In this document: positions 51,641 to 64,000 of the stretch, one piece after another
Layout: every line of letters starts with the position of its first letter
How positions within the stretch are numbered: position 1 is the stretch's first letter
Assembly: GCA_944327085.1 (NCBI GenBank)
Contig: CALVGG010000002.1
Span: 248,001 to 312,000, forward strand
Reading direction: 5' to 3'
Length of the DNA stretch: 64,000 nt
Source: an uncultured Elusimicrobiales bacterium
GTDB lineage: Bacteria > Elusimicrobiota > Elusimicrobia > Elusimicrobiales > Elusimicrobiaceae
The notes under the pieces: model-generated
The model's database searches: none
Told to the model about the DNA's origin: nothing
The model's input: only the letters and a program-made list of their open reading frames with translations
Program-made: the position numbers and the translations under genes

Positions 51641-51716
51641 GGGCGTGTAGCTCAGCTGGGAGAGCGCCTCGTTCGCAACGAGGAGGTCGTCGGTTCGATC
51701 CCGATCACGTCCACCA
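51641..51716 (+). tRNA. tRNA-Ala (anticodon CGC)
   Basis: The 76-base cloverleaf is complete. The acceptor stem is GGGCGTG/CACGTCC with the G3:U70 alanine identity pair. D arm GCTC..GAGC, anticodon stem CCTCG/CGAGG with loop TTCGCAA and T arm with GGTTCGATCC follow. CCA is encoded. The anticodon CGC reads GCG alanine codons. Confidence 0.97.
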
Positions 51717-60353: not shown

Positions 60354-61247
60354 ATGACGCAACAACTGCCACAATGGTTAAAAGATTTAGTAGGTAAAAA
60401 TAAAGCCGCCCTGCGCACGCAGACGGCTTTAAATGCCCAGCATGCGCTGGATACGGGCTCCCTGCATACCGTATGCGTGGAAGCCAAATGCCCCAACCGG
60501 GGGGAATGTTTTAACTGCGGGGATGCTACCTTTATGATTCTGGGGGACACCTGCACCCGCAACTGCCGCTTTTGCGCCGTGCATAAAGGCCGCCCCGCCG
60601 CGGTGGACGTGGGGGAAGCCCGGCGCATTGCCCAAACGGTGAAAGACTGGCATTTGCGCTATGTGGTGCTTACCTCACCCACCCGTGATGACTTGGCAGA
60701 CGGCGGCGCCGGCCATTTTGCCGCCGTTATACGTGCCATAACCTCCCTAAACCCCGGCGTATTGTGCGAGCCGCTCATCCCGGATTTTAAAGCCAACCCG
60801 GCCGATATTCAAACCGTGTTGGACGCAAAACCCGCCGTGCTGGCACATAATATAGAAACGGTGGAGGCACTTTCTAAACAAATACGCGGGGGGGCGGAAT
60901 ACCGCCGTTCTTTAAAAGTATTGGAAACGGCTAAAAAGCTGGCCCCGGCCGTATTAACCAAAAGCGGCATTATGGTAGGCCTGGGGGAAACGGACGAACA
61001 AATAAAAACCACCCTGCAAGATTTAAGAACAGCCGGGGTGGATTTGCTGACGATCGGCCAGTATTTAAGCCCGTCTTCTTCCCATCACCCGGTGGAAAGA
61101 TACCCCTTGCCGGCCGAGTACCAAGCCTGGGAAGATTATGCCCTTTCCATTGGCTTTAAAGGCGCGGCCTGCGGCCCCTTGGTGCGCAGCAGCTACCGGG
61201 CGGGCGCTTTGTACAGCCGTGCAACGGGGCGTTTAAACGCCAAATAG
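60354..61247 (+). CDS. lipA: Lipoyl synthase
   Basis: The 297-residue radical SAM enzyme inserts sulfur into octanoyl groups on 2-oxoacid dehydrogenases and the glycine cleavage system. The auxiliary [4Fe-4S] cluster cysteines are in CVEAKCPNRGEC and the SAM cluster in CTRNCRFC. VVLTSPTRDDLADGGAGHF and SGIMVGLGETDEQI follow. The terminal RSSYRAG supplies the serine ligand. The first two codons overlap the region divergent to the SpoIID gene. Confidence 0.96.
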   Translation: MTQQLPQWLKDLVGKNKAALRTQTALNAQHALDTGSLHTVCVEAKCPNRGECFNCGDATFMILGDTCTRNCRFCAVHKGRPAAVDVGEARRIAQTVKDWHLRYVVLTSPTRDDLADGGAGHFAAVIRAITSLNPGVLCEPLIPDFKANPADIQTVLDAKPAVLAHNIETVEALSKQIRGGAEYRRSLKVLETAKKLAPAVLTKSGIMVGLGETDEQIKTTLQDLRTAGVDLLTIGQYLSPSSSHHPVERYPLPAEYQAWEDYALSIGFKGAACGPLVRSSYRAGALYSRATGRLNAK

Positions 61248-61263: not shown

Positions 61264-61632
61264 ATGAAAAGAGTGTTTTTTATGCTTTTTGCTGCGGGCT
61301 TAACGGCTGCCTGTGCCGGAACCCCGCCCCAGTGGTGGAACCCAAGCGGAACTTATGGTAATGAAAGTGCTTCCGCCATGCCTGCCGCCGGCCAAACACA
61401 GCCCACGGCGCGCCCTGTAACTGCCCAGGAAACACCCGTGGTGCAGGAAGAAAATATAGCTTCCGTCATGCCGGATGATTCTTACGAAGAAATGATTTTA
61501 ACCCCCATGCAAGACGAAGAAACCGAAGAACCCGCCCAGGGGGAAGCCGCTTCTCAAAACACAATGGATATTACTCCGTCTGCGCCGGATGCTTCCAGCA
61601 CTTTGCCGGTACCCAGCGTGCTGCTGGAGTAA
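61264..61632 (+). CDS. Small low-complexity lipoprotein, function unknown
   Basis: The 122-residue protein begins MKRVFFMLFAAGLTAACAGTPP, a lipoprotein signal with lipobox LTAAC. The mature part is short, acidic and rich in Pro, Ala, Glu, Thr and Gln, without predicted folded domain (PQWWNPSGTYGNESASA near the start). It resembles a disordered periplasmic or surface tether. I cannot assign a family. Confidence 0.75.
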   Translation: MKRVFFMLFAAGLTAACAGTPPQWWNPSGTYGNESASAMPAAGQTQPTARPVTAQETPVVQEENIASVMPDDSYEEMILTPMQDEETEEPAQGEAASQNTMDITPSAPDASSTLPVPSVLLE

Positions 61633-61657
61633 AAACAATTATTTTTAACCCAAAAAG

Positions 61658-61689
61658 GAACCCCCCGGTTTAACTAAACCGAGGGGTTC
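61658..61689 (-). terminator. Strong intrinsic terminator closing the candidate non-coding RNA
   Basis: The arms of an imperfect 14-bp stem (GAACCCC and GGGGTTC at the base, GGTTTA and TAAACC at the top) carry one mismatch. On the minus strand CTTTTTGG follows. It can also terminate the lipoprotein gene from the other side. Confidence 0.82.
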
Positions 61690-62170
61690 ATTTTGACGTC
61701 TCCATTATTACCTTCCTTCATTAGTCAGCGCCTCTTAAACGCAAGGACTTACTGTTACCCATTTTGCCGCCGTAGGCCGAACCAATACATCAACCCAACG
61801 CCCGGCAAACAACCGTCAACCGCTTTACTACCGGTGCCGCCTACTTCACGGTGCAGCGTATGTAACCCACCGCTCCTTCGGCTGAGCACGGATACAACCC
61901 ACTTCATCCGTTACGTATTTCAAGCTCCCGTTCACCCGGTACGGACGGCCGCCCGGCGGGCACAACGTCAAACAACCATTATCAATAACAGCCTGTGTTC
62001 CACTTCTATCCGCTGCCGGCTTACCCGACACCGAACCCAACCACACACACTGCCATAACAACTGCTCTACGCCGCTTGAAATGCGTTCCGTACAGCCAAG
62101 CACTTCACAGTTTTCTCGCATTCCGCTGGTAACAACCTTACGCCCAAGGACGCCTTGGGCTTTACTTCAT
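61658..62170 (-). ncRNA. Candidate structured non-coding RNA of about 510 bases, unassigned family
   Basis: This 500-base block lacks any convincing protein-coding frame but has a sigma-70-type promoter upstream on the minus strand and an intrinsic terminator at its end. Read on the minus strand it is dense in complementary segments. GCCCAAGG-CGT-CCTTGGGC is near the 5' end, GAATGCG pairs with CGCATTTC, ACGGAT with ATCCGT inside GTAAC/GTTAC, and GTAGGC pairs over distance with GCCTAC. I tested it by eye against RNase P RNA, tmRNA, 4.5S/SRP RNA, 6S RNA and group I/II introns and found none of their conserved cores. It may be a novel or strongly diverged RNA. Confidence 0.5.
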
Positions 62171-62176
62171 ACTTAC

Positions 62177-62204
62177 AGTATAAGCACAAAAGGGGAAAAA
62201 TCAA
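62177..62204 (-). promoter_or_regulatory. Promoter of the candidate non-coding RNA
   Basis: The minus strand has TTGATT (62199-62204), a 16-base spacer and TATACT (62177-62182). A start near 62170 leads into the structured region. Confidence 0.55.
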
Positions 62205-62291: not shown

Positions 62292-62900
62292 TTACCAAAG
62301 CCGGTAAGAGCGGCCTTTAAGGGCTTGGCGATCAAATTGCGGGTCCGAGTAGATAAATTCCACCGTTTTGGTTTTGGGATTTACAATCAAATACATAGAA
62401 ATTTGGTATTGGGATTGCGGGTTTACCAGGTGGAAGAATACGGTGCCGTTTTCATAATGCAGGGCTTCCTGCGGAAGATAGCGGGAGTTTAAATCTTTCA
62501 CTGTATGGGAAGAAGTAAAAAAATGATATAAATATTCAAAATCTTCTTCTTTTAAATTGGGGCCCAAATCCGCCGCGAATTGTACCGTAAACACATACCC
62601 TTTAAATACCGGGTTTTTGGATAGGGCGTCATTCAACTGCCGTGCACGGTGCAGAAACAACTCCGCCTGGGGGGAAATGGACACCTGCTTTTGCAGCTTG
62701 CGGTATACTTCGGCAAAAGTGGGGCGTTTGTTTTGCGTTTTAAAGACGGATTTTATTTTATACATCAAATCCGCGGTTTGGGTTTCCTCTATAATGGACT
62801 GTGCCCACGGAAACCAGGTAATTTCTTCCTCTGCGGCTTGCAGGCCGGCCGGGAAAATAAGTGCCAAAACTGGCAAAATAAATATAAGAATATGTTTCAT
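62292..62900 (-). CDS. Exported protein of unknown function
   Basis: The 202-residue protein starts MKHILIFILPVLALIFPAGLQA, a signal peptide cleaved after LQA. The mature protein is mixed alpha/beta without a motif I recognise; it contains LFLHRARQLNDALSKNPVFKGYVF and a strand-rich end (TVFFHLVNPQSQYQISMYLIVNPKTKTVEFIY). It is likely periplasmic. The ATG at 62900 is chosen; an upstream frame would start inside the promoter. It is a single-gene unit with its own terminator. Confidence 0.8.
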   Translation of the reverse strand: MKHILIFILPVLALIFPAGLQAAEEEITWFPWAQSIIEETQTADLMYKIKSVFKTQNKRPTFAEVYRKLQKQVSISPQAELFLHRARQLNDALSKNPVFKGYVFTVQFAADLGPNLKEEDFEYLYHFFTSSHTVKDLNSRYLPQEALHYENGTVFFHLVNPQSQYQISMYLIVNPKTKTVEFIYSDPQFDRQALKGRSYRLW

Positions 62901-62908
62901 ATTAGTGT

Positions 62909-62914
62909 AATATG
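62909..62914 (-). promoter_or_regulatory. -10 box (CATATT) of the exported hypothetical gene
   Basis: CATATT on the minus strand ends eight bases before the ATG, with no ribosome-binding site. Confidence 0.38.
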
Positions 62915-63016
62915 AATACATTATAAAAACTTTAGCTTTCCGACGACAGGGCCCTTAGACCCACTATCCAAATGGGCCTTTTGGCACCGTTTATTGTTTA
63001 CTTTTTGTATACGGCA

Positions 63017-63068: not shown

Positions 63069-64000
63069 TTACAGCTTGGTAATGTCTGCCACGGTTTGTG
63101 TTAAATAACGCCGCACCCGCGCCAGCAAAGCCAGGCGGTTGTTGCGCACGGCCGGTTCCGGGGCGTTTACCATTACGTCCGTAAAGAAGCGTTCCAAAGG
63201 TTCTTTAAACGAAGCGTAGGTTTTTAAAACAGCCAGGTAATCATCGGCCGTTTTGGCGGTGTTTACACGGCAGCCTAAAGAAGAATCCACCTGATGAATT
63301 TGGTTGTATAATTCTTTTTCGGCCGGTAAATCCAGCAGGTTTTCGCTTACGTTTTCGTTCACTTCACCCGCTTTTTTAAGGATGTTGCATACGCGTTTGG
63401 CCGGTTCCAATACGGAGATAAAATCTTCCCCGTTTTTAACCGTTTCCAACGCGCTTACCAAGGCTTCCACCTGCGGCAGGGGCATTTCGTACCAGTTGGT
63501 TACCGCGTTAATTACGCCCGGGGTATGCCCGCGCTGTTCCAATACCAAAGCCAAACGCTGGAACAGGAAACCCGGCAGTTGGGCAAGGCCTTTATCCGGC
63601 GTGCCCTGCGGGTATTCTTTGGCGGAGGCTTCCACCAGTTCCTTAACGCTTACGTTAAGGCCTTTTTCCAGCAAAATGCGCACCACGGCAAACGCCTGGC
63701 GGCGCAGGGCAAAGGGGTCTTCGCTTCCGCTGGGAATTTGGCCTATTAAAAAGTTACCGCATAAGGTATCCATTTTGCCGGCCAGGGCCACCAGGTTGCC
63801 TTCCAGCGTGGAGGGCAATGCAGAGGTGGAGGTTAAGGGCAAATAAAAGTCCCGCATGGCGGCCGCTTCTTGCGTTTTGCCTTCCAGGGCGGCGTATTCT
63901 CCACCCATATAACCCTGCAATTCCGGGAATTCATACACCACGTGGCTGGTTAAATCCGCATAGGCGTGCAAGGCGGCATACTGTACCACCGGGCGCAAAG
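63069..64000 (-). CDS. glyS: Glycyl-tRNA synthetase beta subunit, N-terminus beyond window edge
   Basis: The visible C-terminal part (about 310 residues) matches GlyS: FPELQGYMGGEYA, LAGKMDTLCGNFLIGQIPSGSEDPFALRRQA and the C-terminal FFTDVMVNAPEPAVRNNRLALLARVRRY. The beta subunit binds tRNA-Gly and partners with the catalytic alpha subunit GlyQ, which should lie to the right of the window. It is a class II synthetase of the alpha2beta2 type. Confidence 0.95.
   Translation of the reverse strand, partial: LRPVVQYAALHAYADLTSHVVYEFPELQGYMGGEYAALEGKTQEAAAMRDFYLPLTSTSALPSTLEGNLVALAGKMDTLCGNFLIGQIPSGSEDPFALRRQAFAVVRILLEKGLNVSVKELVEASAKEYPQGTPDKGLAQLPGFLFQRLALVLEQRGHTPGVINAVTNWYEMPLPQVEALVSALETVKNGEDFISVLEPAKRVCNILKKAGEVNENVSENLLDLPAEKELYNQIHQVDSSLGCRVNTAKTADDYLAVLKTYASFKEPLERFFTDVMVNAPEPAVRNNRLALLARVRRYLTQTVADITKL

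Follow-up and report, generated by a model that had tools for sequence, protein, structure and literature searches.

RNA-1, a large structured RNA of an Elusimicrobiaceae gut genus with a putative five-codon minigene at its terminator

Dual-function regulatory RNAs such as RNAIII, SgrS and SR1 combine an RNA function and a short ORF in one transcript, and the peptides they encode are conserved and tens of residues long. Other small coding units are classed as minigenes, among them lambda bar and the E-peptide ORF of 23S rRNA. A two-codon minigene is also carried by axe-txe (PMC8708949). Such minigenes pair a Shine-Dalgarno (SD) sequence with an ORF of 2–6 codons and affect the stability or translation of RNA in cis. 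They are found in leaders, phage transcripts or rRNA, and either affect a neighbouring gene or act through toxicity. OLE, GOLLD and ROOL represent a further group, that of large ornate bacterial RNAs whose function is largely unknown (PMC12286853). The RNA described here, RNA-1, resembles each of these in part. With OLE, GOLLD and ROOL it shares a length of hundreds of nucleotides and an intricate covarying fold, but neither RNA-1 nor RNA-2, another RNA that ends in such a tail, matches any of them in Rfam, and whereas OLE has known protein partners, RNA-1 has none known and its usual neighbour is glyS. We know of no five-codon minigene abutting the terminator in OLE, GOLLD or ROOL and, to our knowledge, a 3′ minigene of this kind is present in no described RNA. 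In contrast to RNAIII, SgrS and SR1, the predicted RNA-1 peptides are 4–8 residues long and have no conserved sequence. The RNA resembles tmRNA (RF00023) in being structured and in having a short ORF that is proposed to engage ribosomes, but differs in its SD-like site and ATG, in the location of the ORF at the extreme 3′ end, and in having no visible tRNA-like domain or ALAA-type tag. Unlike the minigenes of axe-txe, lambda bar and the E-peptide, that of RNA-1 is the 3′-terminal part of a structured RNA that stands alone, and two RNA families share it. No account of RNAs of this type in Elusimicrobia came up in a literature search. Large RNAs whose function is not known had been described before; what is new is the RNA class and its tail.

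The window, by which we mean the whole 64,000-nt stretch that was analysed (G000:C2:248001-312000), is part of a 1.67-Mb genome that is 95% complete, and its relevant features are collected in Table 1. The 5′ end of RNA-1 was placed ~6 nt past the −10 box and its 3′ end at the T-run of the terminator. A preliminary description of this DNA had proposed a promoter with 16-nt spacing and a strong terminator, and both lie where it had placed them. As a single sequence the promoter pattern is no rarer than expected by chance (2 found vs 2.1 expected from shuffles); among relatives, the −35/−10 pair recurs at the head of RNA-1, often as CCCCTTGACA-N16/17-TATACT. At the level of patterns, RNA-1 is therefore a unit with its own promoter and terminator, both of which are kept in relatives. 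The 209-aa protein gene on its upstream side adjoins RNA-1 here and in G005; at the other syntenic loci searched, tblastn did not find it. On the other side, the putative lipoprotein gene is convergent with RNA-1 and hence not controlled by read-through.

Table 1. Features of the RNA-1 locus, in window coordinates
Feature	Position	Strand	Basis
lipA-like radical SAM gene, syntenic anchor	60354..61247	+	synteny, Pfam search
122-aa putative lipoprotein gene, convergent with RNA-1	61264..61632	+	ORF, synteny, Pfam search
RNA-1, ~520 nt	61650..62171	-	no Rfam match, fold z, covariation in relatives, 58/66 genus genomes
Intrinsic terminator, strong; 14-pair stem 61689-61658 plus T-run	61650..61689	-	sequence
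Minigene ATG GAG ACG TCA AAA TGA (METSK*)	61688..61705	-	sequence, relatives
SD-like GAAGGAAGG	61711..61719	-	AAGGAG/AGGA at same place in RNA-1 relatives
Conserved AGTAAGTCC, between core hairpin and P1′	61745..61753	-	sequence, relatives
Core hairpin, outer stem TTGCC...GGCAA around GGTTGA-TGTATTGGT-TCGGCC	61764..61808	-	sequence, alignment
Most conserved RNA-1 element GGTTGATGTATTGGTTCGGCC	61775..61795	-	invariant columns, 35-sequence alignment
5′ local hairpin GCCCAAGG-CGT-CCTTGGGC, alternative to long-range P1 pairing	62142..62160	-	sequence
Promoter, sigma-70-type: TTGATT (62204-62199), 16 nt, TATACT (62182-62177)	62177..62204	-	sequence, relatives
209-aa protein, no Pfam family, between glyS and RNA-1	62292..62921	-	sequence, Pfam
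glyS (glycyl-tRNA synthetase beta), upstream syntenic neighbour, runs off window	63069..63998	-	Pfam PF02092, PF05746

No family in Rfam 15, which includes OLE, GOLLD, ROOL, RNase P and group I and II introns, reached its gathering cut-off at the RNA-1 locus, and in a relaxed search of syntenic relatives none reached it either, in agreement with the earlier remark that the cores of RNase P RNA, tmRNA, SRP RNA, 6S RNA and self-splicing introns are not seen here. The sole Rfam match above cut-off within the window is a tRNA gene (51641-51713, plus strand). Direct BLAST with the whole of RNA-1 returned one copy at 94% (G005) and short matches to the 3′ end in other genomes. The resulting impression that RNA-1 is absent from relatives was rejected, as synteny at glyS showed it to be present but diverged. 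The gene order glyS - RNA - 122-aa lipoprotein - lipA is kept among relatives, and many genomes of the genus have, 3′ of glyS, a promoter of the form (CCCC)TTGACA-N16/17-TATACT, 350–540 nt of structured sequence, the core hairpin GGTTGAT-N-TTCGGC, TAAGTCC and a terminator. Model R1, a covariance model that covers the 3′-most 150 nt of RNA-1, identified homologues below an E value of 1e-14 in 56 of the 66 genomes of this Elusimicrobiaceae gut genus. G069 and G009, which score more weakly with R1 yet have the promoter and the tail, bring the count to 58 of 66. RNA-1 is single copy and lies mostly downstream of glyS, with some genomes having it elsewhere; it was not found in G001, G063 and G076 (each >90% complete), reflecting loss, divergence or an assembly gap. 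A scan of 341 genomes of the phylum gave no convincing match in any other genus (at most ~30 bits). Where these weak R1 matches were opened they resemble terminators without the minigene module, and among other genera of the same family, 20 glyS loci were inspected and none has the combination of promoter and tail. An exact pattern search for the core element over 84,980 species placed 24 of 27 contigs in the same Elusimicrobiaceae lineage; the three matches in other phyla, in Colwellia, Gemmatimonadales and Hymenobacter, look like chance. A phage origin was considered and rejected, the core pattern having no match in IMG/VR.

The minus strand of the locus folds better than its shuffled counterparts (z −3.89, with 0 of 100 shuffles as stable), and the excess on the plus strand is smaller (z −2.14). 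Covariation was measured on RNAalifold structures of full-length clade alignments, using pair-by-pair counts and controls in which the partners were slid. In clade A (14 sequences, 76 pairs), 92.5% of cells are paired and 26 of the 76 pairs have changed on both sides, giving a covariation score of 0.298 compared with 0.035–0.110 for slid partners. The corresponding values for clade B (13 sequences) are 97.8% of cells paired, 28 of 135 pairs changed on both sides, and a score of 0.180 compared with 0.036–0.060. A long closing helix, P1, joins the two ends of RNA-1 in both clades. The outer stem of the core hairpin carries compensating changes between clades, and GGTTGAT and TTCGG are nearly invariant. 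Clade A6, to which the window belongs, is represented by 5 sequences that are too uniform to be informative, so that the detailed fold of this particular copy is less certain; the 5′ local hairpin is retained in shortened form in G062 and G088 of the same clade. Compensatory changes exceed the controls in the two alignable RNA-1 clades as well as in RNA-2, the pattern of a structured RNA under selection. The earlier proposal, that the locus encodes a large structured RNA outside the known classes, is thus supported by genus-wide synteny, by the abundant compensatory changes, by the lack of an Rfam family and by the presence of RNase P RNA and tmRNA genes at other places in the genome. Two outcomes that would have counted against it, an Rfam match and drift without covariation, did not occur, and RNA-1 is almost certainly a real large structured RNA.

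It had also been claimed that the region has no plausible coding frame. For ordinary genes the claim stands, since the candidate on the minus strand, an ORF of 91 aa, is frameshifted by indels in the nearest relatives (clade A6) and was rejected as protein coding. It does not extend to the five-codon ORF METSK* (61705-61688), which is preceded by an SD-like site. The tail in the window reads GAAGGAAGGTAATA ATG GAG ACG TCA AAA TGA ACCCC, and its stop codon shares 2 nt with the start of the terminator stem. A purine run resembling an SD, an ATG, a short frame and a stop against or overlapping the terminator stem are present in 58 of 58 RNA-1 tails, 51 of them confirmed by script and 7 by eye where the script had extended the stem upstream or missed the terminator. 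Such a tail was absent from 388 of 388 other terminators in the same DNA, with four flagged background terminators being family members that the core pattern had overlooked, and it arises in ~1.3% of composition shuffles. Because model R1 includes the ATG region, the homologues it retrieved do not count as wholly independent support for the ATG; the frame and the stop are unmodelled. The SD and ATG are predicted to be more unpaired (means of 0.62 and 0.66) than the RNA as a whole (0.36). Conservation of SD, start and in-frame stop exceeds chance across lineages, and comparison of the tails makes it likely that the minigene is truly used by ribosomes.

The length of the ORF is nearly fixed, at 5 codons in 48 of the 51 script-confirmed tails (two have 8 and one has 4). 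All three stop codons are used, TGA being the commonest (37 of 51). The peptides, by contrast, vary, with at least 33 different sequences within the genus and no conserved peptide among them. They are composed mostly of T, S, K, E, N, Q, H, R and C, with one L and no F or W. Even close relatives differ by nonsynonymous changes (METSR, METLR, MDTAR, MQTSR), start and stop remaining unchanged. Based on the fixed length, the use of three stops and this variety of peptides, it appears that the frame is kept and the peptide is not. One set of genomes (G069, G066, G070, G017, G026, G074 and G009; loci L122, L180, L172, L176, L127, L119 and L184) has minigenes with cysteine codons, some of them longer: MHSCC, MHSCN, MHSCK, MYSCC, MGCCSGAV, MSSCKIEQ and MVCSGCGC.

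Weak R1 matches, which in G000 span C2:117268-117398 on the minus strand, led to a second RNA, RNA-2, at G000:C2:117268-117466 on the minus strand (L201, L208), outside the window. RNA-2 measures ~400 nt from −10 box to ORF stop, has its own promoter, matches no Rfam family, and ends in this genome in a 6-codon 3′ minigene, MEQSTN*, against the terminator. It is present in 45 of the 66 genomes of the genus and in no other genus of 100 tested, with a helix-turn-helix gene upstream at 29 of 30 loci. Covariation is pronounced: across 30 sequences, 66 of 100 pairs have changed on both sides, and the score is 0.405 compared with 0.096–0.121 for slid partners. All 30 loci that were read, 24 of which had not been used in building the RNA-2 model, end in an ORF of 5–6 codons against the terminator (for example MEESTR*, MEQSTN* and MNMSAN*; for G028 the inner ATG was taken, giving MNQTK*). 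The ribosome-binding site, GAGAG or GTGAG, is weaker than that of RNA-1. Beyond the tail, a non-exhaustive comparison of RNA-1 with RNA-2 revealed no sequence homology. Nine clade A genomes have RNA-1 and no detectable RNA-2 (G008, G016, G020, G034, G068, G079, G086, G087 and G080), so the two do not always co-occur. The search for further minigene-tailed RNAs used model R1 only.

The anatomy of RNA-1, with a predicted promoter, a covarying fold closed by P1, a core hairpin, and a constant SD-like site, ATG, frame and stop, is well supported by sequence comparison. From it we infer transcription of RNA-1, translation of the minigene and a function for the RNA. The reading we put forward, to which we give an even chance, is that RNA-1 is a standalone unit, a folded RNA ending in a ribosome-binding site and a five-codon minigene, that serves as a ribosome-docked regulatory RNA. 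A ribosome would initiate at the minigene, make a mostly polar peptide of 4–8 residues with no fixed sequence, stop against the terminator hairpin, and then be released or restart. The act of translation and not the peptide would matter, keeping RNA-1 docked on ribosomes with its 3′ end shielded, while the folded domain would act as a ribosome-associated regulatory RNA whose lifetime depends on free, active ribosomes. Because frame and stop are conserved and the peptide is not, the function under selection is most likely the act of translation at the 3′ end. That the minigene serves specifically in ribosome docking or protection falls slightly short of an even chance. A precedent has been suggested in axe-txe, where ribosomes on the minigene were proposed to protect the mRNA from RNase (PMC8708949).

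Several other explanations were weighed. The peptide itself could be the product of a dual-function RNA, the fold controlling the timing of a signalling or toxic peptide of five residues. A strongly polar ORF, retained in every case at a length close to 5 codons, would suit such a role, as would the sharing of METS[KRN] by two clades and the cysteine-containing set in another. The variety of peptides within one genus, their nonsynonymous divergence between close relatives, and the different peptides again of RNA-2 all weigh against it, and we consider it unlikely; in some clades that keep particular features (MHSCC, MHSCN, MHSCK, MYSCC), the peptide may nonetheless have a role. An attenuator or riboswitch-like leader, in which the fold gates ribosome entry to the minigene and thereby terminator formation versus read-through, has the attraction of a familiar order. 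Leader-peptide attenuators have a ribosome-binding site, a short ORF and then a terminator, and in RNA-1 these follow a closed aptamer-like domain (P1). This reading sits badly with the glyS locus, where the gene that follows RNA-1 is convergent. The gene downstream of RNA-2 is on the same strand at two loci and convergent at four, and neither the glyS locus nor the RNA-2 loci revealed a conserved same-strand target, which makes attenuation improbable.

Alternatively, the minigene could be a translational brake or sensor that sequesters ribosomes or tRNAs through peptidyl-tRNA drop-off or rapid re-initiation, tuned by the fold. In E. coli, very short ORFs behind strong SDs do cause drop-off and re-initiation toxicity (PMC8708949), and METSR and MEESTR tails have AGA or AGG as their final sense codon. 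But drop-off toxicity reportedly grows as ORFs shorten, whereas five codons are kept here, many tails end in AAA or AAC, and the commonest stop is TGA, not TAA, to which the greatest toxicity is ascribed; we regard a brake as distinctly improbable. A diverged housekeeping RNA is very improbable. Small SRP RNA (RF00169) and 6S RNA (RF00013) were indeed not found in G000 with the Rfam models, but relaxing the thresholds brought no match to either in the loci of RNA-1 and RNA-2, and the length and 3′ minigene fit neither; RNA-1 and RNA-2 do not resemble them. The genome's SRP RNA may be divergent or sit in the missing part. RNase P RNA and tmRNA are encoded elsewhere (C8:7755-8100, 194 bits, and C1:115609-115955, 133 bits), with no RF00010 or RF00023 match at the RNA-1 locus. 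That a gene-free spacer folds by accident around an accidental short ORF has virtually no chance of being correct, for although patterns resembling promoters and terminators often arise by chance in any one sequence, the idea is refuted by synteny, covariation and the universal tail.

To return to the ribosome-docked RNA, the shared ending of RNA-1 and RNA-2 suggests a mode of linking an RNA to the ribosome that has not been described before. We propose, tentatively and with somewhat less than even confidence, that the two are the first members of a new class in which translating a meaningless peptide anchors the RNA or controls its lifetime. Large, intricately folded bacterial RNAs are rare and most have no known function, and two of them occur here in one genus. 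Mutation of start or stop would give an immediate test handle on what such RNAs do, and the minigene tail can be used as a search key for more of them. If the minigene is translated, these bacteria would have a simple means of coupling an RNA to the ribosome with no protein as product.
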